46,489 nucleotides of DNA from contig JAUMZY010000015.1 in assembly GCA_030527885.1 (NCBI GenBank), forward strand, positions 1-46,489, given 5' to 3'. The stretch is from Corynebacterium sp. GTDB lineage: Bacteria > Actinomycetota > Actinomycetes > Mycobacteriales > Mycobacteriaceae. Below the pieces are notes generated by a model. That model was not told the origin of the DNA and did not search any database. It saw nothing but the letters and a program-made list of their open reading frames with translations. The position numbers and the translations under genes are program-made. Below are positions 8,164 through 31,091 of the stretch, one piece after another (the stretch's first letter is position 1; each line of letters begins with the position of its first letter).

Positions 8164-8177
8164 GTGCTTCTATACTC

Positions 8178-9284
8178 CTAGAACTTGAAGATTTGTTTGA
8201 TTTGCGGCCAGAACGAGAACGCAGCAGCTGCAACGCCACCGATAACCGCGACAACAGCCAAGATCGTTGCCAAGGTCTTACCGCCCTGTGAGCTGTTCAG
8301 CTGGTCACGGAGCTTCTTGATGCTGGCAGAAAGATCAGTGGTGTTAGAACCAGTGGGCTCAGTCGTCTTCGGCGCTTCAGAGCTGGTTACGACCGGCTTC
8401 GGCGCCGCAGAAGAGCTGGTGGTTTCAGCGGCCGTAGGCTCAGTCGTCTCAGAGGAAGAAGGTGCAGGATCTTCCTTTGGCACAATTGGGCCTAGCTTTT
8501 CTTCCAGGTAAACCCGGTTTGCTTCACCCTCAGCTTCAGCATCGGCCTTGATGTTGTCGTAGTTGTCTTCGTAAGCTGCCTTCAGCACCTTTTGATTCAG
8601 AACAACTTCACCCAGATCGCCATGATCAGCATTATTGAGCTGCTTGTCAATGTAGGACTGCGGCACCGACCAGTCGATGACCTGGAACGCATTGAACTCA
8701 AACACCGGCTGGCTCGCATTGATGTCATCCAACCAGTACTGCAGCGCATCACTGCCCTCGTTGAAGATCTTCTTCCGGCTTTCCTTCTCAGCCCGGTTTG
8801 GGGTGTTCTCATTGTAAGTGAACACAGCGGAAGCCCACTTCTGTGCTTCAGGCTTCAAGATAGCTTGTGCCTTTTCGGTTTCAGCCTTATCTACGCCCAC
8901 CTTGGTGAGATCAAGCGTGCGGGCTTCAGCATTACCTTCAGCCTTCATCAGCGCCAACGCCAGGCGAGCTTTGCCCATCCAGCACTGCTGTTCGGAACGC
9001 CAGTGTGCTTGGTTGATGGCTTGTGTACCGGGATAGTTGTCGTACTTCCAGTCAGCGGCAGCCATGTGATACACGTGGCGCAACCGAGTCACCGTCAGGA
9101 AAGTATTCACTTCATTGTTGTACATGTCTGCATCAGCAGCCGGCTCATAGTAGTACTTATGAGGCATAGCGTCGTTGGTTTGTGCTTGGGCAACCAACGC
9201 GATTTGGGGCAGCACCACGGATATGCCGGTGGCACCTACAGCCGTTGCGGTGGCGAAGGCCAACGCGCGGAATGTCTTTTTCAT
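8178..9284 (-). CDS. surface protein, CirA/ChtB-like, second gene of the haem-surface operon
   Basis: A 368-residue paralogue of the downstream protein, with a signal peptide ending near VAQAQ, a helical domain containing KARLALALMKAEGNAEARTL, a shorter Ser/Thr/Pro spacer (~290-325), and the same SSQGGKTLA anchor ending IKQIFKF. It starts with ATG 9284, with 12 bases separating it from the end of the HtaA-domain gene. Exposure at the envelope through the Pro-rich stalk is expected. It may assist haem capture or transfer with its neighbour. This is inference from context, as no ligand site can be read from the sequence. Confidence 0.65.
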   Translation of the reverse strand: MKKTFRALAFATATAVGATGISVVLPQIALVAQAQTNDAMPHKYYYEPAADADMYNNEVNTFLTVTRLRHVYHMAAADWKYDNYPGTQAINQAHWRSEQQCWMGKARLALALMKAEGNAEARTLDLTKVGVDKAETEKAQAILKPEAQKWASAVFTYNENTPNRAEKESRKKIFNEGSDALQYWLDDINASQPVFEFNAFQVIDWSVPQSYIDKQLNNADHGDLGEVVLNQKVLKAAYEDNYDNIKADAEAEGEANRVYLEEKLGPIVPKEDPAPSSSETTEPTAAETTSSSAAPKPVVTSSEAPKTTEPTGSNTTDLSASIKKLRDQLNSSQGGKTLATILAVVAVIGGVAAAAFSFWPQIKQIFKF

Positions 9285-9296
9285 GTTATGGGACTC

Positions 9297-13742: not shown

Positions 13743-14363
<621 letters not shown>

Positions 14364-14365
14364 CC

Positions 14366-14551
14366 ATGGCCCTGAAGATTACCCAGAAAAAAGGATTGGT
14401 TGGTGCCAACCCAAAGCAGCGTAAAAACATGGAAGCTTTGGGCCTCAAGCGCATCAATCACTCCGTCGTCCGCAAAGACAATCCCGCTGTGCGCGGCATG
14501 ATCCAGGTTGTGCGTCACCTCGTGGTTGTCGAAGAAGTGGCAGGGGAGTAA
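14366..14551 (+). CDS. rpmD: 50S ribosomal protein L30
   Basis: 61 residues, starting two bases after the rpsE stop. The family pattern is clear: [30 protein letters not shown] and [16 protein letters not shown]. It is a small globular component of the large subunit. Confidence 0.96.
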
Positions 14552-14554
14552 CCA

Positions 14555-15001
14555 ATGAGCGATGTAATTAAGCTCCACGATCTGCGCCCAGCAAAGGGCG
14601 CAAACAAGCCTAAGACCCGCGTTGGCCGTGGTGAGGCTTCCAAGGGTAAGACTGCTGGTCGCGGTACCAAAGGTACCAAGGCTCGGAAGCAAGTTTCGGC
14701 TGGCTTCGAAGGTGGTCAAATGCCCATCCACATGCGGCTGCCGAAGCTTAAGGGCTTCAAGAGCCGCAACAAGGTGATTTACCAAGTGGTCAACGTTGGC
14801 GACTTGGGTGAAGCATTCCCACAAGGCGGCGACATCACTGTTGCTGACATCGTGGCCAAGGGCCTGGTGCGCAAGAACCAGCCCGTGAAAGTGCTCGGCG
14901 AAGGCGAACTCAGCGTGAAACTCAACGTCACCGCTGAAAAGTTCTCCAAGTCCGCACAAGAAAAAATCGAGGCTGCTGGCGGTTCCATCACTGCTAGCTA
15001 A
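14555..15001 (+). CDS. rplO: 50S ribosomal protein L15
   Basis: 148 residues, binding 23S rRNA in the interior of the large subunit. The Gly/Arg-rich N-terminal half ([23 protein letters not shown]) and the [18 protein letters not shown] signature are present. It is the last gene of this transcript. In most bacteria secY follows directly, but here about 13.5 kb of accessory DNA intervenes. Confidence 0.97.
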
Positions 15002-15014
15002 GGCTTGATTGCAT

Positions 15015-15050
15015 AACCGCTCCCGCTCGCTTGTCGACGGGGGCGGTTTT
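15015..15050 (+). terminator. terminator of the ribosomal operon
   Basis: AACCGCTCCC (15015-15024) pairs with GGGGGCGGTT (15039-15048) and is followed by T residues. The loop contains the word GCTTGTCGAC (15029-15038). Confidence 0.8.
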
Positions 15051-15171
15051 GCTTTCGTTTTGAGTGTGATTGCTGCGTGGTACTTCGGCAACGTGGATAA
15101 GCTTAACCGCTGTTTGTTGAGTTCACATCATTCGTGACGAATTTATTATAGTGACATTTTTTGCTTACCAG

Positions 15172-15177
15172 TAGAGT
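15172..15177 (+). promoter_or_regulatory. -10 box, leaderless promoter of the first TPR gene
   Basis: TAGAGT fits TANANT and ends 7 bases before ATG 15185, so the transcript would begin at or next to the start codon. No good -35 box and no ribosome site are seen. Confidence 0.6.
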
Positions 15178-15184
15178 GTAGGGC

Positions 15185-17164
15185 ATGGGAGATGATTTTG
15201 AACCAGATCTTGGATTCTTTGCCAACGTAATGGCTTACGAGCTCTACCTCCTAAAAACTATGCAGGTTGATTCCATGGCAACCAGAATTGACTACGTCAT
15301 GGCTCTATACACCCAAGGTTATGTGGATCTGGCGCTCACCAAAATGGCTGGGCTACTACCAGTGATGCGGAAAAAACTAGGCTACGAAGACCCCCTCATC
15401 TTCAAACCCTGGAACGCTTACGCCGCCTGGTTGCGCGAAGTCGGCCAAGTAGAAAAAGCCCAAGCCGAACTGGAAGAACTCATCAGCCACAGCGACGATG
15501 TCCTGCCGCTGACTGATCCGGATCGCTATATCTTCCACATCACCCTGGCGCTTTGCCTCAAGGACGTGGGCCAAACCGAAGCCGCCCTGCTGCACCTGGT
15601 TAATGTGCACGACCAACAGCGCCAGAATCTGGGTGAATACCATTCCTCCATGCAGCTCACCCGCAACGGCATTGCCCGCTGCCTAGCCGACCTCACCCGG
15701 CATGGGGATGACGCCAGTGTGCTGGGAGTGAACCACCCCGAAGTGCTGAACACGTACCAGGCGTTGGCGCGCGGCTACTACGCTTTGGGCAAACTCGATG
15801 TTGCCCTGAAGTACTACTGTGACGTGGCCGATGGCTTTGCCGCGCTCCATGGGGACAGTGCCCCTGAAACACTGCGCATTCTCGAAGCGAGCGGCGATGT
15901 TCTCGCAGACCAACACGAGTACAGCGACGCGCTGGCCACCTACGAAAACCTCGTGCGCATCCACCAGCAAAAACAAGGCGACAGCAGCGACGATGCGCTG
16001 CGGCTGCAGGAGAAAATCGCCAAACTCCTCTACGAAATCCGCGACATTCCCAACGCCATCACCACGTACCGCACCATCGTGGCCCACCACCGCGAACACC
16101 TGGGGGACGAACACCCCACGACCCTCAGCAGTTGGTTTGCCTACGCCCAGTGCCTCGACACTCTTGACGCCGTTGCAGAGCTGGACGAACTCATCCCAGT
16201 GTATTCCCGCGTGTACGGGCCAGCAGATGAAAAAACCCTTGCTGCTTACCGGCTGAAAGTGACATCCCTCAAGCACACGGTTCAATGCAACCGCATTCCC
16301 ATCGTATACAAACAAATCCATGAGGTGTTGCGTCGACAAGCTGGCGCCGACGACCCCGAAACCCTCGCCGCGCACGAAGACTACGCCGATGCACTCGCCA
16401 CCTGCGAACGCATCAGCGAAGCCGTCATGGAGTTCGAAGCCATCCTCAAAAGCCGAATACAGACGCTTGGCAAAGATCACGCCGACACCCTCGCCACCTG
16501 GAACAAATACGCCACCCTGCTCAACGACATGGGGGACACCAGCGACTCCGCCCAACAATTCTCCATGCTGCTGCACGAATACGAACGCCTGGATGCCAGC
16601 GACACCCCCGACGCCATCGAAGTGCGCAGCAAATACGCCCGCAACCTCGCAACCAGGGGGTACATCGAAACAGCACTCCGTCAGTACCGGCTCTGCACCC
16701 AAGCCGCCCACCTCACTTACGGTCCCCAGCACCCGCACACTCTCTTCTACCGCCGTAATGTTTTCCTCTGCCTGCTCTTCCTAGAGCGCATCGACGTCGA
16801 CGACATCGCCGAAGTACAGGAGCTACTCGCCGACTACCGCCGCGTGGCTGGTGAGCAAAGCCGCGAAACCCTACTCACCTGGGCGCTCTACGCCCAAGCC
16901 CTGGACCAAGCTGGCTACATCACCCAAGCCCTCACCGAATTCGAAACCTGGCTCAACAGCAACAGCCGCTACGTCACTGACAGCGATGTGGTTTTTGTTG
17001 TGCGCAAAGATTACGCACTGGCGTTGTTCCACGCCGGCAAAATCGCCGAAGCGCACATAGAAATGCAATTGGTTATTGCTGACGCAATCAACGAACTGGG
17101 TGAAGAACATAGCCTGGTCAGCTACCTGAAAGCCGAAGCGAAACACATCAAGCAGCAAGATTGA
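15185..17164 (+). CDS. TPR-repeat protein, first and longest of five paralogues
   Basis: 659 residues, almost entirely about 42-residue tetratricopeptide repeats of the kinesin-light-chain type (TPR_10/TPR_12). The pattern is an ETLxxWxxYAxxL helix, a GxxxEA turn and a linker with LGxxHPxTL, as in LGKDHADTLATWNKYATLL. About 15 repeats are present. There is no signal peptide or membrane helix, so it is cytosolic. Such arrays bind partner proteins, and no enzymatic domain is attached. The start is fixed by the leaderless -10 box at 15172. It is the most divergent of the five and is about 150 residues longer than the others, probably by extra repeats. Codons are strongly C-ending. Confidence 0.8.
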   Translation: MGDDFEPDLGFFANVMAYELYLLKTMQVDSMATRIDYVMALYTQGYVDLALTKMAGLLPVMRKKLGYEDPLIFKPWNAYAAWLREVGQVEKAQAELEELISHSDDVLPLTDPDRYIFHITLALCLKDVGQTEAALLHLVNVHDQQRQNLGEYHSSMQLTRNGIARCLADLTRHGDDASVLGVNHPEVLNTYQALARGYYALGKLDVALKYYCDVADGFAALHGDSAPETLRILEASGDVLADQHEYSDALATYENLVRIHQQKQGDSSDDALRLQEKIAKLLYEIRDIPNAITTYRTIVAHHREHLGDEHPTTLSSWFAYAQCLDTLDAVAELDELIPVYSRVYGPADEKTLAAYRLKVTSLKHTVQCNRIPIVYKQIHEVLRRQAGADDPETLAAHEDYADALATCERISEAVMEFEAILKSRIQTLGKDHADTLATWNKYATLLNDMGDTSDSAQQFSMLLHEYERLDASDTPDAIEVRSKYARNLATRGYIETALRQYRLCTQAAHLTYGPQHPHTLFYRRNVFLCLLFLERIDVDDIAEVQELLADYRRVAGEQSRETLLTWALYAQALDQAGYITQALTEFETWLNSNSRYVTDSDVVFVVRKDYALALFHAGKIAEAHIEMQLVIADAINELGEEHSLVSYLKAEAKHIKQQD

Positions 17165-17220
17165 TAACAATAACACAACAAATTACACGCGAGTATAGGA
17201 GAGGCTAACTAGCTGTTCTG

Positions 17221-17226
17221 TACAGT
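17221..17226 (+). promoter_or_regulatory. -10 box, leaderless promoter of the second TPR gene
   Basis: TACAGT followed by 7 bases and ATG 17234. It shares the word CTG/TTG-TACAGT with the promoters of the other TPR genes. Confidence 0.65.
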
Positions 17227-17233
17227 ATGATCT

Positions 17234-18757
17234 ATGGCCAAAATCCATAACTCACAAACACTGAAGTATAAAAAGACCTTTGACGAACTCCGCACCCAGC
17301 TCGGGGAAGAACACCCCGACACCCGGGATATATGGCTCACCTACATAGACTCCCTTATACAAACCGGTGAGACTGAACACGCGCTCACCGAATTAGCCCT
17401 CCTCATCTCTGTCAGCGAGCGCATGCTCGGCGATAACCACGTCTTCGTGGCCGGATTGATAAGCAAATACGCCCATTACCTCATGCAGCTCGGGCACTAT
17501 CAGGATGCCCACACCAAATTTCAGCAGGCGGAACACCTCACCCACCACCACTACGGGACCACCAGTGAAGAATGGTTATACCTGCGCGGAAAATCCGCCG
17601 AATGCATCACTCACCTCGGCAAATACACCGAAGCCGGAAATATATTCCACGAATTATTAACCACCCGCCGCCGGCTCTACGGCGACACTCACCCCAGCAT
17701 CCTGGGAACCTGGATTAACTACATCGTCTGCCTGGAAAAACAGGGCCAATATGTCAAAGCCCTTGCTGAGGCCGAATTATTACTGCCGTTTTGCATCAGC
17801 ATCCTGGGGGAGCAACACAATTCCACCCTTTATGTGCGCAGCAAATACGCCGCAGTCCTGCGGGGCGTGGGCAAATCCGAACGCGCCCTCGCCGAAATCC
17901 ACCGCATTTTGATATCCCGCCGCGACGAGCTAGGCGCCGACCATATAGACACCCTCAACACCCGCGGGCACCACGCCTCCTGCCTCAGTGAACTAGGCCG
18001 CAACGATGAAGCCTACGCGGAGATGACCAGACTCCTCGCCGACTATCGGCGCATCTTCGGCAACGACCACCCGGAAACCCTCACCGTGTGGCACAACTAC
18101 ATAGCTAGCCTCGCCAACGCCGGCTACACTGCGGACGCCCTCACTGAGGCACGCACCCTGCTGGACACCCGGCGCCGCCTGCTCGGCCGGGAACATGAAG
18201 ACACCCGTCAAACCTGGCGCAATTACGCCATCATGCTTGCCGAGCTTGGCTGCTACTACGAAGCCACCGCAGAGTTCGAAGCGCTTGCTGATATTGAGGA
18301 GCGATACCGCGGTGCCTTTCACCCCAACACCATCGACGCCCGCAGCAGGTATGCGCACTGCCTCCTTGAGAGCGAACAAGTATTCGATGCTTACACGGAA
18401 TTTCGTCGCGCGCTCGAAGGTACCCGGCACATCTACGGCGAAAATGACGACCAAACCTTTTACATCCGTACTCGCTGCACCGACTGCCTCATGAGCCTCG
18501 GCGACCACGACACCGCCCTCCGCGACTGGGCGCACTTACTCCACGACTCCCGCCAAGTCCGTGGCGAGGATAACCCAGAAACCCTCAAACTCTGGAACGA
18601 CTACGCCTGGGCGCTCTTCACCGGCGACAAAGTCACCGAGGCGCACTTGGAATACGAATTCCTCCTGCCCGAATGCGTCCGCATCCTTGGCGCCGACGAC
18701 CCCCAAACCCGGGCGTATAAACAACTATCCCAACGAGTGGCGCAGTACCTCTGTTAA
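17234..18757 (+). CDS. TPR-repeat protein, second paralogue
   Basis: 507 residues and about 11 kinesin-light-chain-type TPRs. Repeats alternate between a Trp form (SILGTWINYIVCL, ETLTVWHNYIASL) and an Arg form (STLYVRSKYAAVL, NTIDARSRYAHCL) in an order also found in the fourth and fifth paralogues. The C-terminal repeat (LKLWNDYAWALFTGDKVTEA, then EYEFLLPECVRILGADDP) closely resembles that of the fifth paralogue. It has no targeting signal and is likely a cytosolic scaffold. There are 69 bases between the upstream stop and this start, which hold its own promoter, so it is separately transcribed. Confidence 0.82.
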   Translation: MAKIHNSQTLKYKKTFDELRTQLGEEHPDTRDIWLTYIDSLIQTGETEHALTELALLISVSERMLGDNHVFVAGLISKYAHYLMQLGHYQDAHTKFQQAEHLTHHHYGTTSEEWLYLRGKSAECITHLGKYTEAGNIFHELLTTRRRLYGDTHPSILGTWINYIVCLEKQGQYVKALAEAELLLPFCISILGEQHNSTLYVRSKYAAVLRGVGKSERALAEIHRILISRRDELGADHIDTLNTRGHHASCLSELGRNDEAYAEMTRLLADYRRIFGNDHPETLTVWHNYIASLANAGYTADALTEARTLLDTRRRLLGREHEDTRQTWRNYAIMLAELGCYYEATAEFEALADIEERYRGAFHPNTIDARSRYAHCLLESEQVFDAYTEFRRALEGTRHIYGENDDQTFYIRTRCTDCLMSLGDHDTALRDWAHLLHDSRQVRGEDNPETLKLWNDYAWALFTGDKVTEAHLEYEFLLPECVRILGADDPQTRAYKQLSQRVAQYLC

Positions 18758-19300
18758 CGGGGCTGCGGCGGCATGAAATGGGGATTTTCCCCGGTGTGTT
18801 TTCGCAGTTCATACCCCCGAATTTGCGGAACGAAACTTGCTACATGAGCGTTATCTGAGTGGGTTGCATGCTTGTCGACGCCCACAGTTCCCGGCGCAAT
18901 ATCGCGGATATCTCAAGTTTGCGCCGGGTTATCATTCTAGTTGTGGGCAATAATTTTAATCATTTCGATAGCCGTGAAACCATTGTGAGGTTATTTTGCG
19001 TAACCTTACACTTCGGCGGCTGAATATGGGGTGTTGGGGGTGAAGACTTTGCGCTTGCCGACGGCCATTGTGGGGTCGATTGGCGTATAATCTTAAGCAT
19101 GGTGATTGTTCCGAGCTGTCAAATATCCAGATTGCAAAAACCAATAACCATGCAAAAAATAAAAAAATAAAACCAAAAGTGCAGCTATATCAAATAGCAA
19201 GAATGACCATTGTTTAGGCCTTCAACCCGTGTAAAACTAAGAACCGTACTCATGTTGTACGCAGATACATGAGAAAACTACGGAAGAAGAAGGTTGACCA
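18758..19300. other. gene-free stretch with a long hairpin
   Basis: No open frame of note. CCCGGCGCAA (18890-18899) pairs with TTGCGCCGGG (18919-18928), and an inner TATC/GATA pair lies within the loop. GCTTGTCGAC lies at 18870-18879. The rest, especially 19130-19260, is AT-rich and probably contains the promoter of the lectin/CHAP gene. Confidence 0.5.
18890..18928. other. 10-bp-stem hairpin, terminator or regulatory RNA element
   Basis: A perfect 10-bp GC-rich stem with a 19-base loop that itself contains a short inverted repeat around GCG. There is no T-run on the plus strand. It may terminate the second TPR transcript, 133 bases downstream of its stop, or be a protein-binding site. Confidence 0.4.
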
Positions 19301-20853
19301 ATGAACCGAAACAAATTCGGCACTATGGTTGCAACAATCGTTTCGATTTCCCTCCTGGCAACATCAACACCCGTTACCAGCGCGGAAACGGCGGTGTTCC
19401 ACCAAATACGCAACGCCGAAGTAATCTAGGGAGCAGACAGCACACGGGGTGAGGCTGACGACACCGATCAGCCTGAGATTGGGCTCACCGCGGCACTCCC
19501 ATACGCCACCAACAACACATTCGACTTCAACGGAATGCGTTTCGGCATCACCGAAATAGTCACGACAGTACTCCTGCCCATCTTCGTGCTGATCGCTGGA
19601 CTGCTGCTGAAACGGGCCACAAGCAATACCACCAAGCCCGCTGCCAACGAATCGCCGGCGCCGACGCCTACGCAGGCGCCTGCTCCGGCGCCCGCGCCCG
19701 CCGCGCCAGCTTTCACCTATTTCAACTGTAACGTTCGGGCCGAAATGGTGCGCGGTTGTGAGCTCGCACAAAACAACTGGATCGTTTACGGTGAGCACCT
19801 CACCTTCGGCCTAGGTGCTGACGGCAGCATTCAGTACCGCGTCGGCTCCCGCGTCGTGTGGAGCGTGAGCGGCACTGGCCAAGGCAGAGTGCTCCGCTTC
19901 ACCGAAGACGGCCGTGTGGTCATCCTCGAAAACGGCACGGAAGTCTTCGCCCTCTTCCCAGAGCGCGGTCCCGTGGACAAGATTAACCTCGGATCCGAAG
20001 GCTATCTGTTTGCCTACAACAATGGTGCCCGAGTGTGGAACGATGCCTTCCGCATCGACATTTTGTTCCCCAACCAGTCGTTGCAGGCCAACCAGATGCT
20101 CATGTCACCCAATGGACAATTCACCACCGTGTACCAAAGTGACGGTAACCTGGTCACCTACCATGGCAACACACCCGTGTGGGAGACCGGCACCCTGGGC
20201 AAAACTGGTAGTGACATGCACGCCATCATGCAATCAGACGGTAACTTCGTCATCTACGTCAATGGTGCTCCCGTATGGGACACCGGCACCACCAACGCAG
20301 CTAGCGAAAACGCTGTTTTCTGGATTGGCCAAGACGGCGTCAACCACATGACCAAAGGTCACACCCGGTTCTGGAGCAGTGTCGAAGGTCGACTCATCAA
20401 CCTGCCGCCGGCACCTGCACTGGCTCCTGCACCTAACCCTGGTGGCAGCAGCAGCTTGTCCGCCAAGGTTGATGCCTTCGCAGCTAAGTACAACGGTCGT
20501 TGGATTGGAACTGGTCAATGTACTGAACTGTTCCAGGCTTATAACAAAGAGATCGTTGGGGCCCATATGAAGTCATGGGTGGTAATGGTGGTGCCAGGAA
20601 TCTTTGGGAACGTCCAACCAACGCCCGGCGGCAGTACTACCACTTCGTTGGCCCTAACGCTGCAGCTCAAAAAGGCGATGTAGCTGTATGGGGAAATAGC
20701 AAGTGGGGGCACGTTGCGATCGTTTTGGAAGATCGGGGTAATGCACTACTCCTGCTGAGCGAGAACAACCATGAGCCTTACAATGGTGGCAAAGCAGAAT
20801 ACTTCACCATGAGCAAAAATACTCTGCTTGGGTACCTCCGTCCTAAGATGTAG
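19301..20853 (+). pseudogene. secreted bulb-type lectin / CHAP peptidoglycan hydrolase, doubly interrupted
   Basis: ATG 19301 follows GGAAGAAGAAGG and begins a clear signal peptide (MVATIVSISLLATSTPVTSA). Codon 43 is TAG (19427-19429), after which the same frame stays open: a membrane-spanning helix (~86-104), an Ala/Pro stalk, and a B-lectin region with two perfect QxDxNxVxY mannose-binding motifs (QSDGNLVTY, QSDGNFVIY) plus degenerate ones. A second Pro stalk leads into a CHAP domain (GQCTELFQAYNKE with the catalytic Cys). Near 20566-20575 the frame shifts by one base, and the CHAP domain continues (GDVAVWG, GHVAIVLE, SENN) to 20853. Repaired, the protein would have about 517 residues. It is either an eroding cell-wall hydrolase or lectin-like bacteriocin, or the frameshift is a sequencing error. 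Translation from ATG 19535 would give a membrane-anchored lectin with half a CHAP domain. Confidence 0.75.
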
Positions 20854-20867
20854 GGGGTAACCCTGTG

Positions 20868-20897
20868 GGCTGTGGGATTTTTATCCCACAGCCTGCT
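20868..20897 (+). terminator. terminator after the lectin/CHAP gene
   Basis: GGCTGTGGGAT (20868-20878), loop TTTT, and ATCCCACAGCC (20883-20893) form a perfect 11-bp stem followed by TGCTTTT. Confidence 0.85.
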
Positions 20898-20916
20898 TTT
20901 ATGCATGACGTCGGGC

Positions 20917-20926
20917 GTCGAAAAGC
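20917..20926 (+). repeat. intergenic GTCGAAAAGC word
   Basis: Exact copy between the preceding terminator and the promoter of the third TPR gene. See the finding on the GTCGA(A/C)AAGC family. Confidence 0.6.
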
Positions 20927-20982
20927 TAGCGTGCTATACCCCAAAAAATTAGGTACCGCAATGTGCTGGAAAATAATAGTTG

Positions 20983-20988
20983 TACAGT
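20983..20988 (+). promoter_or_regulatory. -10 box, leaderless promoter of the third TPR gene
   Basis: TACAGT preceded by TTG, then 7 bases to ATG 20996. The AAGG inside the 7-base gap is too close to the ATG to be a usable ribosome site on a leadered transcript. Confidence 0.65.
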
Positions 20989-20995
20989 TTAAGGC

Positions 20996-22528
20996 ATGGC
21001 GGAAAACCACAACCTCAACACCCTGGCCCCCAGCACCCAAATCAAAGCTCAACTAGCAAAACTGCAACAATCTGGGGGAGACACCCCAGAAATGTACCAA
21101 GTCTGGGAAAACTACATCAATGCGCTGATTGTCGAAGACCAACCTAAGGAGGCGGCGGCCCAATTTGCGGAGCTCCTAGCCAGCCACGACGCGGCCTACG
21201 ACATTAAAAGTAGCGATGCGATACCAATTCGCAGAAGATACGCCCGCTTCCTCTGCCACATTGGCAACACTCGTGCCGCAACCACCCAATTTGCCACCCT
21301 GCAAGAAGCACTAACGCATCATCTTGGGCCTGAGGACCTCGAAACCCTTTATGCCCAAGAGCAAGTGGGGCAATGCCTCAACCAAATTGGTAACGTCTCT
21401 GCTGCCACGCAAGTCTTTGCCCGGGTGCGGACTTCCCGTCAGCGGGTCCAAGGGAAAGACCATCCCGATACCCTGACGAGCAGCGCGCATTACGCCGTAT
21501 CACTGGGCAAAATCGGCAGGCACACCGAGGCTCTCATGGAATGCGAAGCACTGCTGCCTAGAATGACCACGGTATGGGGTGCTGATGATGAGCGCACCAT
21601 CGTCATGCACGGCAAGCGCGCGCTCTCACTGCAAGCCCTGCAACGCTACGACGAAGCTATCGAAGAATACGAACAAACAATCGAATCTTATTATCGGGTC
21701 TTTGGCGCCGAAGCCCCCTCCACCTTCAAAATCCGCAACCAATACGCCATCTGCCTCAGCAACGCCGGCCACGATGCTGAAGCGGTTGCCCAAACAGCCG
21801 CTCTCCTAGACGACGCCCGCACTGTCTTTGGGCCTCACCACCCCAAGACCCTCCGCTACTGGAACAGCTACGCTGCCGGCCTCGCCAACCAGAAAAACCT
21901 TGACGAATCCCTCGCCGAATTCCAAGACCTCCTAGCCACCCGGCTGGAACTCTACGGCGAAACCCACCCAGAAACCCGACACACCATCCTGGGTTACACC
22001 AAAATCCTCGAAGAACTACAACGCTACGAAGAAGCCGCCCAGTTCTACCGCATCCTCGCCGAACACGAAGCCGAAGCCACCAGCGACCTAGCGCTCAACA
22101 CGCTCAAATTCCGCGCTGATTACGCCCGCAACCTCCTCAAATTCGGTGACATGCTGGAAGCCAGCGTGGAATTCGACAAAATCCGCCGTGGCGCCCGGGA
22201 AACCCTCGGCGAAACCGACAAATTCCACTGCTACGCTTGGTCCCAATACGCGGCCACCCTCATCTGCATGGAGAAATACCAAGCCGCCCTCCCCGAATTC
22301 GAAGGGCTCCTGCGCGTATCCCGCGACATCAACGGTGACGACAGCTTAGAAACCATCGAAGTGCGATACGACTACATGCGTACCCTCTTCGCCCTCGGAA
22401 AAACTGCTGAAGCCGAAGTGGAATACGGTGAGCTCCTGCAAGACTGCACGCGAATCTACGGCCCCAACCATTCCACCACGATGCATGTGCAAGAATTTGG
22501 TGCACAATTTCAACCGTGGGATAGGTAG
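20996..22528 (+). CDS. TPR-repeat protein, third paralogue
   Basis: 510 residues and about 11 TPRs of the same class (GPHHPKTLRYWNSYAAGL, GETHPETRHTILGYTKIL). The Trp/Arg order of the repeats is less well kept than in paralogues 2, 4 and 5, so this copy has diverged further. The last repeat (TLFALGKTAEAEVEYGELL) keeps the family's EAxxEYxxLL ending. No signal peptide or fused domain is present. It is separated from the lectin/CHAP gene by a strong terminator, so it has its own leaderless transcript. Codons are strongly C-ending (ACC, GCC, CTC). Confidence 0.82.
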   Translation: MAENHNLNTLAPSTQIKAQLAKLQQSGGDTPEMYQVWENYINALIVEDQPKEAAAQFAELLASHDAAYDIKSSDAIPIRRRYARFLCHIGNTRAATTQFATLQEALTHHLGPEDLETLYAQEQVGQCLNQIGNVSAATQVFARVRTSRQRVQGKDHPDTLTSSAHYAVSLGKIGRHTEALMECEALLPRMTTVWGADDERTIVMHGKRALSLQALQRYDEAIEEYEQTIESYYRVFGAEAPSTFKIRNQYAICLSNAGHDAEAVAQTAALLDDARTVFGPHHPKTLRYWNSYAAGLANQKNLDESLAEFQDLLATRLELYGETHPETRHTILGYTKILEELQRYEEAAQFYRILAEHEAEATSDLALNTLKFRADYARNLLKFGDMLEASVEFDKIRRGARETLGETDKFHCYAWSQYAATLICMEKYQAALPEFEGLLRVSRDINGDDSLETIEVRYDYMRTLFALGKTAEAEVEYGELLQDCTRIYGPNHSTTMHVQEFGAQFQPWDR

Positions 22529-22620
22529 AAGCTGGGTTTCGGGGGCGTGGTCGTGGAAAAGCGGCACGGCTGGGGGAGAGGTGGTCATACCACCCGATAA
22601 ACCCCAGCAGGCAAAATGTG

Positions 22621-22626
22621 TACAGT
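22621..22626 (+). promoter_or_regulatory. -10 box, leaderless promoter of the fourth TPR gene
   Basis: TACAGT preceded by TG, then 6 bases to ATG 22633. It decides the start, because the in-frame GTG at 22618 lies within the -10 region. Confidence 0.6.
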
Positions 22627-22632
22627 GAGAAT

Positions 22633-24177
22633 ATGGGACAGAATGCGGAAGAAATCACCCAGGAGCTCAGACAAAGATTCACCCACATTTGGCGGCTACA
22701 GGGCGCACAAGACCCCGAAACCCTCACAGCACTGACCTATTACGTGGCAGCACTCCTAGAAAATTACCGAGAACTCGAACCCACCGCGCTTGCCGCCGCC
22801 GCCAACCACATTGCCGAACTAGTTGCAGAATTACGCCTCAGCTATGGTGAATATCACCCAGCAACCTGCGTTGCCCGGGCAAAAATCGCCGAGATTCTCC
22901 AAACAATGGGGCAATTCGAAGAAGCCCGCACCCTCTTCCACAAATGCGCCACCGGGTTCGAACAAGAATACGGTAAGGAAAATACTTCGGCCATGAGCCT
23001 CCGCGGCCAAGCCGCCGATTGTTTAGCGCAACTCGGGCGGTTCGCCGAAGCATTGCCGGAATTTACCGAACTCCTTGACATGCAGCGTAGGGTTTTGGGC
23101 CCGCTGGATTCAGAGACATTACTGACGTGGACCAGCGTCATGATTTGCCTGGACGAAGTAGGCCGCACCGAACAAGCCTGCGCCGAATCGGAGCTGTTAC
23201 TGGCTGCCCGCATCCAAGTTTCCGGGGAGAAAGACCCCGATACGCTGCTGGTTCGTTACAAGTACGCGGGGCAGCTGCAAGAGTTGGGGCGTCCCGGTGA
23301 AGCCCTGATTGAATACAAGGCGGTGCTGGCTGGTAGGAAAGAAACCTTCGGGCCGTATCACCCTTTTACCTTTATCGTGTGGGATGCCTTGGGCACGTGT
23401 TTGGTTGATGTGGGGGATCTGGAGGCTGCGACGAATGAGCTGGAGCAGGCGTTGCTGGCGGCTAAAAAACTCCTAGGCTCCGGGCATTATCAAACACTTG
23501 TGCTATGGAATGATTGGGTGAGTTGCTTGCTGCGGCAGGAGAATTATGAGCGGGGTATCCCGGAGCTCAAGGCCCTATTGGACACACATAAGGCCATGAA
23601 TGGGCTGGATGATCCCCAAACGTTGGAAACCTGGTACGCCTATGCCTATTACCTCTTTGTCAATAAACAATTTTCGGCGGCGGGGGCGGAATTTCCCAAT
23701 GTGTTGAAACGCTACGAGCGGCTCTACGGGGAGTACGACCAAGAAACCACCATGGTGCGCATGATTTATGCCCAAACTCTGCGTGAATTAGGGGAGCTGG
23801 ATCAAAGCTGCGCTGAATATAAAAAGGTGATGACCGCCTACCAGCAACTGCCCGGTGCAGATCCCCTGGAGGTGTTGTATGCCCGCAATGAGTATGCGCG
23901 GTGCTTGCTGGAGGCGGACCGGGTGGCGGAGGTGCTGGCGGAATCGTCAGGGATTTTGGAGCAGACGCGCCAAGTGTGTGGGGAGGACGACGAGGAGACG
24001 TTTAAAGCGTGGAATAACTATGCGTATGCTCTCGTGCTGGCGGGGATGGTGTCTGAAGCACAGTTCGAATATGAGTGTTTGTTGACGGTGGCGGTGCGCA
24101 CCTTGGGGCGGGAACATGCTGTTGTGTTGGATGCACAGGATACGTTGGCTGACGTGAGCACCCAGCTAGGGCAGTAG
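22633..24177 (+). CDS. TPR-repeat protein, fourth paralogue
   Basis: 514 residues and about 11 TPRs. Repeat helices run in the order Arg, Arg, Trp, Arg, Trp, Trp, Trp, Arg, Arg, Trp (ATCVARAKIAEIL ... ETFKAWNNYAYAL), nearly the order of paralogues 2 and 5. The C-terminus keeps VSEAQFEYECLL. The start is placed at ATG 22633 by the -10 box. Codon use changes inside the gene, from C-ending codons in roughly the first 150 codons to G-ending codons (CTG, GCG, GAG, GTG) in the rest, so paralogue 3 and this gene's 5' part resemble each other in base composition while its 3' part resembles paralogue 5. Likely cytosolic, partner unknown. Confidence 0.82.
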   Translation: MGQNAEEITQELRQRFTHIWRLQGAQDPETLTALTYYVAALLENYRELEPTALAAAANHIAELVAELRLSYGEYHPATCVARAKIAEILQTMGQFEEARTLFHKCATGFEQEYGKENTSAMSLRGQAADCLAQLGRFAEALPEFTELLDMQRRVLGPLDSETLLTWTSVMICLDEVGRTEQACAESELLLAARIQVSGEKDPDTLLVRYKYAGQLQELGRPGEALIEYKAVLAGRKETFGPYHPFTFIVWDALGTCLVDVGDLEAATNELEQALLAAKKLLGSGHYQTLVLWNDWVSCLLRQENYERGIPELKALLDTHKAMNGLDDPQTLETWYAYAYYLFVNKQFSAAGAEFPNVLKRYERLYGEYDQETTMVRMIYAQTLRELGELDQSCAEYKKVMTAYQQLPGADPLEVLYARNEYARCLLEADRVAEVLAESSGILEQTRQVCGEDDEETFKAWNNYAYALVLAGMVSEAQFEYECLLTVAVRTLGREHAVVLDAQDTLADVSTQLGQ

Positions 24178-24288
24178 CAGATTACTTATTGCACTGGCCT
24201 GTTATTAGTTGGCTAGCGTTTGACCAGCGGGGATGTAGCGCACATAGGATTTTTTAACTTTAGGCAGCATAAAAAGCCTTCCGCATTG

Positions 24289-24294
24289 TACAGT
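24289..24294 (+). promoter_or_regulatory. -10 box, leaderless promoter of the fifth TPR gene
   Basis: TACAGT preceded by TTG, then 7 bases to ATG 24302. This is the same layout as the boxes at 17221 and 20983. Confidence 0.65.
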
Positions 24295-24301
24295 AAGGGC
24301 T

Positions 24302-25687
24302 ATGAGCACCGAAAACCTAAAGCAGCAACTCGAATATTTCCAACAAACCTTAGGGATGGAACACCCCCAGACATTAGCCGCATGGGATGACTATATTGAA
24401 AGCCTCATTGCTACTTATTGCTTAGATGAAGCAATTATGGAGTTAGAGCAACTTGTCGCTATATATGAGCAGACCAGGGGGCAATTCCACTTAGAAACCA
24501 GCGCCATGCGTAGCAAGTATGCATTCTTCTTGCAGCAGTCCCAAGATATGGAACAAGCGTATGAAGAATACGGCAAAGTGGTAGAAGGTTTTCGGCAGGC
24601 TAACGGGGATATGCACCCCGACACTATTTTTGTGCGGCAGCGGTTTGTTGACTGCAGTTTAGAGTTGGGGTTTTTTGATGAAAGCTTGCCGCTGCTGCAA
24701 GGGTTGTTGCATGATTGCCGGCAGGTGTTGGGGCCGACCGATATTGATACGCTGCATGTGTGGGCTAGTTATGTGAGTTGCTTGTCCGAGCTGGAATACG
24801 ATGAACAGGCATTATGCGAAGGTGAGGCCTTGTTGCCGGCTTGTTTGCAGGTGTTGGGGCCGCAGCACCCAGAGACCATTGATGTGCGCAGCAAGTACGC
24901 TTCGCTGTTGAAGAATTGTGGGTGCATGCCGGAGGCAACAGAGCAGTTCGCAGAGGTGCTGGCCGGGCGGAGAAGCATTTATGGGCCAGATCACCCGCGC
25001 ACGCTCAATGCGTGGGAGGATTATGCGGCATGTTTGGCCGAGGAGGGGCAGTTTGCCCAGGCGTTGCCGGAGCTCAGAGCGTTGCTTGATGCTTATCGAC
25101 GAGTGAGCGGGGCGGAATCGCCTGAAACCATCGACGCATGGAACACATACGCCATGTACTTGTTTGAGGCCAAAGAGTGGTGGGAGGCGCTGGCCCAATA
25201 TGAGTCTTTGACGCAGTTCCATGAGAATCACCAGGGTGAGTATGGGCGGGATACCAACATTGCCCGGGGGCGGTATGTGTTGTGCTTGCGGGCGGTGGAG
25301 CGGTTTTTTGATGCGTTCGCGGAGTCGGCGAAAGTGGTGGAGGGGTGCCGGAAGGTGTACGGCGATAAGCACTTTGTCACCCTGCACGCGCGGACGGAAT
25401 ATGCGCATTGTTTGTCGAATCTGAATCGCTATGAGGAAGCATTGGCGGCGTGGACTGCACTTTTGGAGGATAATCGGGAAATCAACGGGACGGAATCCGA
25501 GAAGACGTTGGTGGTGTGGAATAATTATGCGTGGACGCTGTTCCATTCCGGCCGGGTGTCGGAAGCCGAGGTCGAATATGAATTTCTTATCGAAGAGACA
25601 GTGCGAATCTTAGGGCCGGATCATCCATTTACGAGAAATTTTCAAGAAGTTGCGCAACGAGTGGCAACGCATCTGGACAATAAGTAG
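24302..25687 (+). CDS. TPR-repeat protein, fifth paralogue
   Basis: 461 residues and 10 TPRs, the shortest of the five. Repeat helices alternate Trp and Arg forms in the order W R R W R W W R R W (ETLAAWDDYIESL, ETSAMRSKYAFFL ... KTLVVWNNYAWTL). The final repeat, with SEAEVEYEFLIEETVRILGPDHP, is close to that of paralogue 2. Codons are G/T-ending (TTG, GTG, GCG, CGG), unlike paralogues 1-3. It has no targeting signal. It is the last gene of the cluster and is followed by a good terminator. Confidence 0.82.
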   Translation: MSTENLKQQLEYFQQTLGMEHPQTLAAWDDYIESLIATYCLDEAIMELEQLVAIYEQTRGQFHLETSAMRSKYAFFLQQSQDMEQAYEEYGKVVEGFRQANGDMHPDTIFVRQRFVDCSLELGFFDESLPLLQGLLHDCRQVLGPTDIDTLHVWASYVSCLSELEYDEQALCEGEALLPACLQVLGPQHPETIDVRSKYASLLKNCGCMPEATEQFAEVLAGRRSIYGPDHPRTLNAWEDYAACLAEEGQFAQALPELRALLDAYRRVSGAESPETIDAWNTYAMYLFEAKEWWEALAQYESLTQFHENHQGEYGRDTNIARGRYVLCLRAVERFFDAFAESAKVVEGCRKVYGDKHFVTLHARTEYAHCLSNLNRYEEALAAWTALLEDNREINGTESEKTLVVWNNYAWTLFHSGRVSEAEVEYEFLIEETVRILGPDHPFTRNFQEVAQRVATHLDNK

Positions 25688-25754
25688 GAGATTCGTGGTG
25701 GTGAGCGCGCCCATGGTTTCAGGGGTAAAATATTTATAATGTGTGAGAAGTATT

Positions 25755-25796
25755 AATTGGTCGCCGGGTTCCCAGGAATCGGCGGCCAATCTTTTT
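25755..25796 (+). terminator. terminator after the fifth TPR gene
   Basis: ATTGGTCGCCG (25755-25765) pairs with CGGCGGCCAAT (25780-25790, one G-T mismatch zone) and is followed by CTTTTT. Confidence 0.8.
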
Positions 25797-26043
25797 AAGC
25801 TTTAATTAAGTTTGTGGGGGCCGGGGGCGGTGTGGGGGCGTTAAGTCGCAGGTGAACGTTGTGATTTTGTAATGAGGCGAAAGTCATAGGGGTAATTCTG
25901 CACCAGCACTGCTGAGATTATTCTCTTATGTGTAGTATATGTGTTATTAAGGCCTAGGCGGTCCGATGATCGCAGTCAGATAACTCAATCTCTTAAATTT
26001 TTTGTGCGGAAACGCGGGAAAGCATTGCAAGAGGCGGAATAAA
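25797..26043. other. upstream region of the sialidase-like gene
   Basis: No gene is seen. It is AT-rich, with TATGTGTAGTATATG near 25928-25942 as a possible promoter, and GAGG at about 26030 as the ribosome site of the next gene. TTAAGGCCTAGGC (~25947) only weakly recalls a DtxR half-site. Confidence 0.4.
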
Positions 26044-27255
26044 ATGAGCAGTAGACCGATGCACATGATGATCGCAGTGATCAGCGGTTTACTCATGGGA
26101 AGCGCCAGCATCCCCCTCCCACCACGCGCCACCGCCGAAGAACCCACAGCCCTATTCCAAGAATACGATCTAGCAACCAACTGCTACCACCAACCCACCA
26201 TCACCACGACCGCCACTGACGCCATAGCGGTGGGGTACGCCCTCAACACCACCGCGTGCCCAGAATTGCACCACCAATCAGCCCCGTTCTATCAGGTGCT
26301 TTCCACCAACAACGGCATCAGCTTCGCCGAACCAATATCCCGCACCACTGGGGCAACCATCGCCACCCGGCTGCATTACGGGCAGCACGCGGGCCGACTC
26401 GTGCGCGGCATCCCAGTCAGCGGGCCGCGGGGGAGTGCCTACACCGCCATCCTATTTTCCGACGACCACGGCAGCAGCTGGATTACGAGTAATTGGCGGG
26501 ACGCCCAATTAACAGACCTCAGCATCATTGAGCTTTCCGACGGCACCCTCATGGCCGACGGCGCCAGCCCCAACGGCACACGCCAAACCGCATATTCGTA
26601 CGACAGCGGCTTGAACTGGAGCACCCCAGTCACCGACACCACCACCCCCATTCCACACCGGGAGGGGGCAATGATTAGAGCGTATCCGCAAGCGCCACCG
26701 CAATCAGTACAGGCCAAAATCTTGGTGGCTACTGATACTGAAACTATTCGGGTCTCATGTGACGAAGGTCGAACCTGGCCCGTCGAAAAGCAATTAATGC
26801 GCAAATACATTCGCCACCCGCAGCTGGCGGCATTATCAAATGATCTCATTGGGCTGGCTTACGAAATTGACAATAACATCAGCTTTGCTCGCTTCAATCT
26901 GGCCTGGCTGGGGCGCACCTGCTTGACCGCAACCGCACCAATCACCGCCATCGCCGCCGGCAACACAGAAACCATTCCCATCACCGTCAGCAACTCGCTG
27001 GGGCGAAACCTAGTCGCAGAAAAACTAACCATCACCACGCCTAATGCCGACTGGAACGTAGGGAAACAACCACAGCTAACACTGCTGGCCGGCGGCGCAC
27101 AAACCATCAGAATCCCCGTGAAAGTGCCAGCGCAAACCGCGCCGGGCAACTATAAACTGTGGTTCTCTGTGCCGGATGGCGAAAGCACCGCCACGGGATA
27201 CATCACGATTAACGTCACAGCACCTGTAAGGCCCCTGACGGGGGTAGAAAAATAG
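26044..27255 (+). CDS. secreted sialidase-fold protein lacking the catalytic arginine motif
   Basis: 403 residues from ATG 26044. The signal peptide ends near Ala31. A six-bladed sialidase-like propeller follows, with three good Asp-boxes (SDDHGSSW, SYDSGLNW, SCDEGRTW) and a degenerate first one (STNNGISF). The C-terminal ~100 residues form a beta-sandwich of the NEW3 type (IAAGNTETIPITVSNSLGRN; VPAQTAPGNYKLWF). Active sialidases carry F/Y-R-I-P near the start; here it is Tyr48-His49-Gln50-Pro51. The Asp of the following DRR-type segment and the second Arg (after ELSDGTLM) are also absent. It probably binds glycan or is inert. C. diphtheriae carries a sialidase gene, nanH, and from memory it lies near secY, so this may be its diverged homologue. 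Confidence 0.7.
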   Translation: MSSRPMHMMIAVISGLLMGSASIPLPPRATAEEPTALFQEYDLATNCYHQPTITTTATDAIAVGYALNTTACPELHHQSAPFYQVLSTNNGISFAEPISRTTGATIATRLHYGQHAGRLVRGIPVSGPRGSAYTAILFSDDHGSSWITSNWRDAQLTDLSIIELSDGTLMADGASPNGTRQTAYSYDSGLNWSTPVTDTTTPIPHREGAMIRAYPQAPPQSVQAKILVATDTETIRVSCDEGRTWPVEKQLMRKYIRHPQLAALSNDLIGLAYEIDNNISFARFNLAWLGRTCLTATAPITAIAAGNTETIPITVSNSLGRNLVAEKLTITTPNADWNVGKQPQLTLLAGGAQTIRIPVKVPAQTAPGNYKLWFSVPDGESTATGYITINVTAPVRPLTGVEK

Positions 27256-27344
27256 TACCAATTGGTACACCTGTGCGTAAAACTGGGGAAAAATAAAAGA
27301 GTTTTGCGACACCGAATAGCGAAATTATGGTAATTCCAATTGAT

Positions 27345-27506
27345 TTATCCGGAATGATAGGGGGTGAATTGCCCCTGAATGGGGAACGTGATCAAACCGA
27401 CAATTATCACGGTCAGCGCAATAATTAATAGTGTTGCAATAAATAATACGAATTTTCCGGCGATTAAGGCTAGCCAGATCATTAAATTATTGCCTAGACT
27501 GACCAT
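27345..27506 (-). CDS. possible small membrane protein, 53 residues
   Basis: ATG 27506 to TAA 27345. The product is one long hydrophobic stretch (MIWLALIAGKFVLFIATLLI followed by IALTVIIVGLITF), enough for one or two helices. The frame stays open upstream for about 40 more codons without an ATG, so it may be the 3' remnant of a longer gene. No ribosome site is evident. Confidence 0.3.
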   Translation of the reverse strand: MVSLGNNLMIWLALIAGKFVLFIATLLIIALTVIIVGLITFPIQGQFTPYHSG

Positions 27507-27669
27507 GAAGGCAGATCCAACCAAATTGACGGAATCTTGCGAGTTGTCGGCGAGTTCTTCCGCTAAGTGTTGAGATTGCTGAGTACAATAAACCCGCGCG
27601 CAATGCCGTGTGAATGAAAATGTGAACGGACAGCATCATGCGTGACGTTGACCCCGATCACAACTAAAT

Positions 27670-27721
27670 AGCGGGATAGAAGTATAGAAACCTGCAATTT
27701 CTACACCACTATCCCACTGCT
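27670..27721. terminator. long imperfect hairpin
   Basis: AGCGGGATAG (27670-27679) pairs with CTATCCC-ACT-GCT (27709-27721), and TAGAAA/TTTCTA (27685-27703) forms an inner stem. There is no clear T-run. It could be a terminator remnant or a regulatory structure. Confidence 0.35.
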
Positions 27722-28254
27722 AAGCAGCACCCCTCACTTGTGTGAGTTTCAACAGTGCAGGCGACAAGCGAGGCGGAATCCAACATTGTTGGCTTCTTCT
27801 TGGATTCCGAACAAGCTTTTCGCTATATGCTGTTAAACAAGTATAAGGGTTGGGTGCTGTTTTTGTATCACTCTTGCGCGAGTAGCTCACCCCTAGGGTG
27901 GATCTTTCTTAAGCTGATTATTACAATTGCCCAAATGTAGGCTACAAACGCAATCACAATAGCTAATATTCCGGTTGCCTAAAATTGGGGGTAGCGGAGG
28001 GGTAGCAGCGTTCAAAGTTCCGCAGTCGGCGGGTCGAAAACTGTCAGCTTTGCGACGGTCCCCGCCGCCACATATCACTCTTGTTCGCTACCATTTTGGG
28101 CTGCCATATTAAGCCGCTGTTACCGTTGGGTCGCGGCGTTGGGTGCCGGCTTGGTGTCGCCAAGAACTTCAGCTAACCAAGACCAAGTTAAGCATGTTGT
28201 GCATCTAGCCTCCCAGTGTACCAAGAATGGAAAAACCGCTGCACCATGCAGGTC

Positions 28255-28273
28255 ACAGGTCAGGTAAACCTAA
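28255..28273 (+). promoter_or_regulatory. DtxR-like box upstream of secY
   Basis: ACAGGTCAGGTAAACCTAA matches 14 of 19 consensus positions, including the right half AACCTAA perfectly. It lies about 100 bases before the presumed secY -10 box. No iron-related gene is adjacent now. Confidence 0.4.
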
Positions 28274-28370
28274 GGCGAGTCGTTGCTTTGGTTATGGTTA
28301 AGGTTTTTCTTTTAATATTTTTTGGGGGAGTACCTCCATACCTGACTGTGATTTAATTTAACTCTAGTGG

Positions 28371-28376
28371 TAGAGT
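28371..28376 (+). promoter_or_regulatory. -10 box of secY
   Basis: TAGAGT fits TANANT. A start near 28383 would give a ~98-base leader containing a perfect hairpin with a GAAA tetraloop (CCCCACG 28401-28407, CGTGGGG 28412-28418). Confidence 0.45.
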
Positions 28377-28480
28377 AGCAAGGTCAGTCAGTCCATATCG
28401 CCCCACGGAAACGTGGGGGATCAACAAAACGCAAAATTTTCCTGCCAGCCTTGTGGCTGCGTGAGGAGCCAGGAGGCTAA

Positions 28481-29803
28481 GTGTCCGCCATTCTTCAGGC
28501 CTTTAAGGATGCGGATCTGCGCAAGAAGATTCTTATCTCTCTTGCCCTGATCATTTTGTACCGCATTGGTGCCCAGATACCTTCGCCAGGTGTTGATTAC
28601 GCGTCCATTTCAGAACGTCTTCATCAACTATCATCCGATACCCAAGGTGTCTATGCATTAATCAACCTGTTCTCTGGTGGCGCGTTACTGCAACTATCAG
28701 TCTTCGCTATTGGTGTGATGCCGTATATTACTGCCTCCATCATTGTGCAGCTGCTGACCGTAGTGATTCCCCGTTTTGAAGAACTCAAAAAAGAGGGGCA
28801 ATCTGGCCAAGCAAAAATGGACCAATACACCCGCTACCTAACCTTGGCGCTGGCGCTACTGCAATCCTCTGGCATTGTCGCACTTGCCGACCGCGAGCAA
28901 CTTCTAGGACAAGGAACCCGAGTGCTCAAAGAAGGCCATTCCCTGTTCGATTTAATCATTTTGGTGCTCGTCATGTCCGCCGGCGCGGTCCTCGTGATGT
29001 GGCTCGGCGAAATCATTACCGAACGTGGTGTGGGTAATGGCATGTCCCTGCTCATCTTCGCAGGCATCGCCACCCGTATCCCCGCCGACGGCGTGAGAAT
29101 CCTCACAGGCAGCGGCGGCCTCGTCTTCACCTTGGTACTGATCGCAGTGATTGTCCTGGTCATCGGTGTGGTATTCGTTGAACAAGGCCAACGCCGCATC
29201 CCCGTGCAGTACGCCAAGCGCATGGTGGGCCGCCGCCAATACGGTGGCTCCTCCACTTACCTGCCGCTGAAGGTGAACCAGGGTGGTGTGATCCCCGTGA
29301 TCTTTGCCTCCTCCCTCATCTACATGCCGGTGCTGATCACCCAAATCGTGAACTCTGGCTCCACAACTGTCCCGGATAACTGGTGGCAACGCAACGTCGT
29401 TCAATACCTACAAACCCCATCTTCATGGCAGTACATTGTGCTGTACTTCGTGTTGATCATCTTCTTCTCGTACTTCTATGTATCTGTGCAGTACGACCCT
29501 GCCGAACAAGCCGAAAACATGAAGAAATACGGCGGCTTCATCCCCGGCATTCGCCCTGGCCGCCCTACCGCAGAGTACCTCGGGTTTGTTATGAACCGTC
29601 TGCTTTTCGTGGGTGCACTCTACCTAGGCATCATTGCTATCTTGCCTAACATCATGTTGGACTTCGGGGTGTCAGCGCGGACTGGTTCCTCCACCCCATT
29701 CGGCGGCACCGCGATTCTGATTATGGTTTCGGTTGCTTTGACCACAGTCAAGCAAATCGAATCCCAACTCCTACAAAGTAACTACGAAGGACTCTTGAAG
29801 TAA
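28481..29803 (+). CDS. secY: preprotein translocase subunit SecY
   Basis: 440 residues with ten transmembrane helices, forming the protein-conducting channel of the Sec translocase with SecE and SecG. Family blocks include [55 protein letters not shown] and [12 protein letters not shown]. The start is GTG 28481, with a strong AGGAGG five bases upstream. adk follows after one base. It is normally next to rplO, but here it is separated from it by the TPR cluster and the sialidase-like gene. Confidence 0.97.
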
Positions 29804-30467: not shown

Positions 30468-31091
30468 ATGAGCTTTATGGCGAATAAACACTATGACTGG
30501 CGGTTTCGCAAACGGTCCGCACGCCTTGTGCTTGATACCGGCCGGCCAATCAGCGCCGTCGCCAAAGAAGTAGGCGTTAACCCAATGACCTTAAGCAGAT
30601 GGGTCAAAATCCAATACGAACTCGACAGCCGCGACAGCCAAGCCGCAGCCCGCGCCCAAAAAATCAAAGACCGCAGGTTAGCAAAGCAACAACGCAACGA
30701 AACCCTGGATAAAAACTTCCTCGCGGTCATGAAAAGCCAACTGCCAGAAAACGCCACCAAAAGCGACAAATTCGACCTCATGGAGAAAGAACGCGCCAAC
30801 TTCGACCTCAGTCGAATGGCCCGCCTCCTGGGCGTCACCAAAGGCGGCTTTTACAAACATATAGAAGAACCCCGCCGCCAAAACCGGATTCGCCAAAAGC
30901 GACTCAACGACAAACTGGACCTCTTCGTCCACCAAAGCTGGCTCGACTCCAACCAAACCTTCGGCGCCACCAGAATCACCGCACAATTGCTGCAACAATA
31001 TCACTGGGAGGTTAAGGTCAATGAGGTGCGTAGGTCCATGCACCGGCTTGGCATCCGGGGCAAAACCAACTCCTCGCATATACCCAAATAA
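30468..31091 (+). mobile_element. truncated IS3-family transposase ORF (OrfA plus OrfB N-terminus)
   Basis: 207 residues in one open frame. Residues 1-50 are a transposase helix-turn-helix (FRKRSARLVLDTG, VAKEVGVNPMTLSRWVK), and a charged coiled segment follows. From about 105, an OrfB start of the HTH_21 type is present (RMARLLGVTKGGFYKHI; TFGATRITAQLLQQYHWEV; RRSMHRLGIRGKT). The DDE catalytic domain is missing, and the frame stops at TAA 31091. In intact IS3 elements the two parts are in different frames, so the fusion into one frame without catalytic domain suggests either decay or retention as a DNA-binding protein. TAGTC/GACTA arms lie just upstream (~30431-30450). No terminal inverted repeats were found by eye. 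Confidence 0.7.

Follow-up and report, generated by a model that had tools for sequence, protein, structure and literature searches.

What do five paralogous TPR genes do between rplO and secY, and how did they come to lie there? In the window (the whole 46,489-nucleotide stretch of Corynebacterium DNA that was analysed), rplO (14555-15001) on the left and secY (28481-29803) on the right flank five ORFs, all intact and all on the forward strand in the ORF listing, which encode the TPR proteins A (15185-17164, 659 aa), B (17234-18757, 507 aa), C (20996-22528, 510 aa), D (22618-24177, 519 aa, with a GTG start) and E (24302-25687, 461 aa). A first-pass annotation of the DNA had placed five kinesin-light-chain (KLC)-type TPR genes of 461-659 residues here; the ORFs are real and their repeat is exactly 42 residues long, with self-identity peaking at a lag of 42 in all five proteins (15-24%, versus 8-11% at the next best lag).

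Repeat type and protein architecture

B, C and D each consist of eleven 42-residue repeats and E of ten, and A is the longest and most divergent member of a set whose paralogues are ~24-38% identical. All five proteins exceed the cut-off of Pfam TPR_12 (98.7-141.6 bits, cut-off 30.1), and B-E also exceed that of TPR_10, with A below it (20.2 vs 27.5); with tandem 42-residue repeats above Pfam cut-off (PF13424/PF13374), A-E all belong to the KLC-type TPR arrays. The KLC label also stood up against the PDB, in which the family profile matched 16 distinct sequences at 1e-10, every one a kinesin light chain or KLC-like repeat. The TPR domains of KLC1 and KLC2, the sole PDB proteins matched at this threshold, share the 42-residue TPR_10/TPR_12 repeat with A-E, but differ in that B-E have at least 10 repeats, that kinesin is absent and that Tyr occupies position 14 in 73% of the family's repeats.

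Actinobacteria with big genomes commonly carry large KLC-type TPR arrays, most of whose ligands are, to our knowledge, unknown. Actinobacterial KLC-type arrays, either stand-alone (L082 and L085, for example) or fused to NB-ARC/STAND NTPases, share repeat length and consensus with A-E, but are distinguished from them by residue preferences and by the tandem arrangement of five genes. Among relatives in the order (207 repeats from 21 of them, compared with a family set that includes the first D repeat, which is out of register), position 14 is Leu in 76% of repeats and position 13 Asn in 38%, whereas the A-E family has Tyr at the former, Asn in only 13% of repeats at the latter, Trp at position 11 (43%) and Cys at position 17 (38%). 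The family is therefore recognisable as a sub-family. Within the genus, the TPR ORF of G048 (L019:9564-10592, 342 aa) is likewise a stand-alone 42-residue array and is 27-31% identical to A-E, but it is a single gene away from rplO/secY, with Leu at position 14 in 5 of 7 repeats and a GC content of 74%. Repeat type and stand-alone architecture are both of known kinds; what appears to be new is the sub-family with its Tyr and Trp marks, its arrangement as a tandem set and the site that it occupies.

No kinase, NB-ARC, HTH, protease or NTPase domain was found in A-E among Pfam families to E 0.1, which bears out the earlier description of a stand-alone architecture without kinase, NB-ARC or protease domains and sets A-E apart from STAND/NB-ARC-TPR sensors, in which the NTPase lies in the same protein. 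Neither a signal peptide nor an N-terminal or internal membrane-type segment was found in A-E (top 19-mer hydropathy 1.54, versus 3.41 in secY), which suggests that the proteins are cytosolic.

A first alternative casts A-E as the sensor arms of a signalling or conflict system: TPR modules that separated from STAND/NB-ARC NTPases or from the FxSxx system and would now work in trans with an effector or NTPase whose gene lies elsewhere. In STAND NTPases, the repeats are described as the region that encounters the signal (PMC7159879). The best model beyond plain TPR is the FxSxx-COOH TPR protein fxsT (NF040586), whose C-terminal TPR part aligns with A-E (the strongest stretches fall inside model positions 366-741 of 830). 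Among the relatives in the order, several combine an NTPase with TPRs, and TPR-S (PF20308, cut-off 27.6) reaches 29.1 bits in C, where no single stretch passes, 25.1 in E and 23.3 in B, with A and D not listed. All five proteins, however, lie below the NF040586 cut-off of 300 (155.4-224.3 bits), match its TPR part only and lack the N-terminal half of fxsT, and membership of the FxSxx-COOH system was rejected on score. Among the ORFs listed, none stood out as an FxSxx peptide or processing gene. Nor does the cluster encode an NTPase or effector, and the sole further family match in the complete related genome G164 is another TPR ORF. Since the order includes stand-alone arrays too, an NTPase ancestor is unnecessary. 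PADLOC matches are weak (best E-value 0.0011, for E, and 0.0036 for C; no match in A, B or D), so a known anti-phage defence system was also rejected, and the self/non-self system offered as one possibility in the first-pass annotation gained no positive evidence, no effector domain having been found in the cluster. We consider the sensor-arm alternative unlikely.

Distribution, orthology and the rplO-secY site

Across 242 genus genomes, a family profile built from ten members matched five at 1e-10, and the TPR set is found in two of these, the window's own genome and G164. G069 and G129 carry longer TPR ORFs that look NTPase-like by sequence, and G048 carries the one stand-alone TPR ORF described above. 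The first-pass annotation had held that its account would fall if the same five genes were present in the same order, with a known function, in many described genomes; that outcome was not found, two of the 242 genus genomes carrying the set. At order level, the profile matches 48 of 298 genomes at 1e-30, and the best outsider scores 202 bits; at class level it matches 6 of 296 at 1e-50, counting the window's own, and the best outsider scores 200 bits. Family members score 571-777 bits over long stretches, against a profile built from these same members. The window's genome is 53% complete, and further TPR members may therefore escape view. No published description of this TPR set was found in the open-licence literature searched, in keeping with the earlier remark that no function could be named for a stand-alone TPR family of this kind. 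We rate the set as a probable lineage-restricted variant of the actinobacterial KLC-type TPR proteins.

G164 is complete in one contig of 2,866,540 bases and shows the order rplO - B' - C' - X - D' - E' - secY, with orthologues of B (L018:12287-13837 (-), 75% identical), C (L018:10710-12242 (-), 65%), D (L018:7775-9364 (-), 65%) and E (L018:6295-7680 (-), 76%). A has no orthologue there, and gene X (304 aa) is the non-matching fifth TPR gene, 44% identical over 179 residues to a distant 834 aa TPR ORF of the same genome. That ORF (L020:2895-5399 (-)) lies near ilvC, and its N-terminal part is the X-like part. A tree of the TPR proteins, which the first-pass annotation had proposed for the five, resolves each B-E orthologue pair as a clade at 100/100, and the duplications that gave rise to B-E are therefore older than the split of the window genome and G164; the placement of A and X is unsure because of their long branches.

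Third codon positions of B-E differ from those of their orthologues at 49-59% of sites and second positions at 10-20%, a contrast that demonstrates purifying selection on B-E. The dN/dS estimates for B and C are ~0.11 and ~0.22; in D and E, dS is close to saturation or has reached it. By this sequence evidence B-E look to be kept, working genes, although the TPR proteins evolve faster (dN 0.17-0.27) than adk (0.09) or secY (0.04).

The premise that rplO and secY are neighbours holds for part of the genus only. The gap was measured in 109 genomes among the matches listed, nearest relatives first (111 had both genes among the matches listed; G035 and G071, with the genes on separate contigs, were left out), and was below 1 kb in 41, 1-6 kb in 49 and above 6 kb in 19, so that 68 of the 109 exceed 1 kb and adjacency is no rule. 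The window has the largest gap measured (13,485 bases) in this comparison of intervals, which had also been proposed. In the 20 intervals retrieved, none of the ORFs of 100 aa or more is related to the TPR, lectin-like or sialidase-like proteins of the window. Ten of their cargo ORFs were scanned, with matches that include a solute-binding protein, a permease, an ABC ATPase, an aldehyde dehydrogenase, a ferredoxin-type reductase, a formate/nitrite transporter and a molybdopterin oxidoreductase, and two without a match. From the wide gaps and unrelated cargo it follows that genes have been inserted repeatedly at the rplO-secY junction within the genus, with the TPR set as one cargo among several.

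Signs of the set's source were also sought. Among 72,556 plasmid records protein E matched 125, Streptomyces accounting for 100, with every match below 60% identity and with fxsT genes among them; among 50,697 phage records it matched 3, from Wolbachia WO. PHROGs matches were weak, and phage or plasmid origin was rejected as unsupported. Recent foreign acquisition is likewise without support from composition, since the GC content of A-E (52.6-57.6%) overlaps that of four neighbour genes (53.1-59.7%). A scan of positions 14000-29000 against Rfam matched no RNA element.

Such a site invites a second alternative, a lineage-specific expansion at a permissive locus in which the copies have redundant or dosage functions and have not divided ligands among them. 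In its favour are the variability of the interval and the unrelated cargo found in other genomes, along with fast protein evolution and the fact that A and X are unshared, from which it follows that gene turnover goes on. It accounts less readily for the retention of four paralogues as intact orthologues in the same order, and for the conservation of paralogue-specific residues between the genomes. We regard this alternative as conceivable but improbable.

Predicted grooves and a candidate adaptor role

The reading that we favour, with about even confidence, is that A-E may be soluble cytosolic KLC-type TPR solenoids that serve as peptide- or protein-binding adaptors, each copy with its own ligands. 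A founder gene of a TPR-array type common in actinobacteria would have given rise to the set by several duplications at the variable rplO-secY site, before the window genome and G164 split; the C-terminal repeat would have stayed common to the copies and the predicted concave groove would have changed from copy to copy, so that each would read its own ligands.

This reading draws on residue patterns along the repeats. Concave and groove positions were assigned by what we take to be the canonical TPR numbering, and the comparison left out the first D repeat, which is out of register. At the predicted concave positions orthologues are 66% identical and paralogues 16%, versus 60% and 25% at helix-B positions, a set that includes two half-structural positions, which raises its paralogue identity. 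The log ratio between concave and helix-B positions has a bootstrap range over 11 repeats of 0.18-0.88, with 0.35% of replicates at or below 0. When 6 of the 30 non-structural positions were drawn at random 2000 times, 2.45% of the draws gave a ratio as high as the observed one. Concave and helix-B positions do not differ significantly in orthologue identity taken by itself (166/252 vs 201/336, p 0.14). Predicted groove residues are kept between orthologues and are most different between paralogues, a pattern of moderate statistical strength that favours, and does not prove, different ligands for each paralogue. These residue patterns lend moderate support to the earlier suggestion of scaffolds with different partners, one of the three tests being non-significant.

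Other features are common to the paralogues. The final repeat has the highest paralogue likeness (46%, the remaining ten repeats having 22-38%). Read by eye, position 11 runs W-I-R-W-R-R-W-W-R-R-W in B and W-R-R-W-R-W-W-R-R-W in E, which fits with one repeat absent; D agrees with the pattern W-R-R-W-R-R-W-W-R-R-W at 9 of 11 positions and C at 5. A common order along B, C, D and E is as expected from whole-gene duplication followed by divergence. From the sequences we infer the groove positions, the adaptor role, the distinct ligands and a common partner at the C-terminal repeat.

KLC TPRs are known to bind peptide cargo, and PDB entries such as 6fuz and 6fv0 are KLC-cargo fusions. A more speculative and rather doubtful extension of the adaptor reading is that the set could be a bacterial analogue of the kinesin-light-chain principle, in which paralogous adaptor solenoids would share a C-terminal docking repeat and a Trp/Arg pattern at position 11 fixed along the chain, and would have grooves tuned to different peptides, so that one core partner or site would be served by several interchangeable cargo readers. 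A set of intact, divergent paralogues without enzyme domains, carried by a small genome and matched by orthologues in a relative whose genome is complete, is a compact object for finding the ligands of such arrays.

Neighbouring genes and transcription

Two genes foreign to the TPR set lie in the same interval. The first, reported earlier as a secreted lectin/CHAP gene interrupting the row, is a lectin-like gene on the forward strand (19535-20683, a frame of 382 aa) with an N-terminal hydrophobic segment. The lectin-like match and the hydrophobic N-terminus were upheld, but the frame stops within the CHAP region and the CHAP-domain piece (20545-20853, forward strand; PF05257, 30.1 bits, cut-off 26) lies in another frame, so the gene is frameshifted in this assembly, by what may be either a true lesion or an assembly error, the two being indistinguishable here. 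PHROGs groups the CHAP piece with endolysins, and the lectin part has an NCBIfam match, below cut-off, to lectin-like bacteriocins. The second is a sialidase-like gene between E and secY (26002-27255, forward strand, 417 aa), with a hydrophobic N-terminus and BNR and NEW3 matches below cut-off.

Both genes are absent from G164, where the B-C interval measures 44 bases versus 2,238 in the window and the sialidase-gene stretch 25689-27371 is equivalent to 21 bases. The lectin-like gene has no relative in G164 and no clear one in 18 other genomes searched, the lone weak match being in G068, in the proline-rich part (E 1.9e-4); relatives of the sialidase-like protein occur in 10 of 19 other genomes, in five of them within ~2.7 kb downstream of secY. 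The two genes may have been gained in the window genome or lost in G164, as two genomes fit either. Their hydrophobic N-termini and shared interval would suit a third alternative, in which the TPR proteins are exported or host-directed and form a surface module with them; with the TPR proteins devoid of signal or membrane segments, and with B-E remaining in G164 where both neighbours are missing, we consider this highly improbable.

The claim that each TPR gene has its own promoter was not supported: promoter-like sites in 14900-28600 on both strands are at chance level (7, versus a mean of 8.7, s.d. 2.7, in shuffles), and of the three on the forward strand one (15122-15149) lies directly before A. 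Terminator-like patterns number 21 versus 17.8 in shuffles, and the longest stem listed is a forward-strand hairpin between the lectin-like gene and C (20865-20896, 14 pairs followed by a T-rich tail). This hairpin and the short intergenic gaps (A-B 69, C-D 89 and D-E 124 bases) suggest A-B, the lectin-like gene and C-D-E as putative transcription units.

Elsewhere in the window (6832-11705 (-)), an 802 aa HtaA-domain protein adjoins two ORFs, 368 and 443 aa long, that match no Pfam family at 1e-5. This HtaA-domain protein, like the genome sizes of 1.9-3.8 Mb across a genus of 242 species, agrees with the assignment to Corynebacterium. A small ORF downstream of the sialidase-like gene (27345-27524 (-), 59 aa) has a strongly hydrophobic segment and a similar ORF at the equivalent place in G164, and a transposase-like HTH protein (window 30468-31091; L018:2450-3064 (-)) lies between adk and an M24 peptidase gene, at the same spot in both genomes.
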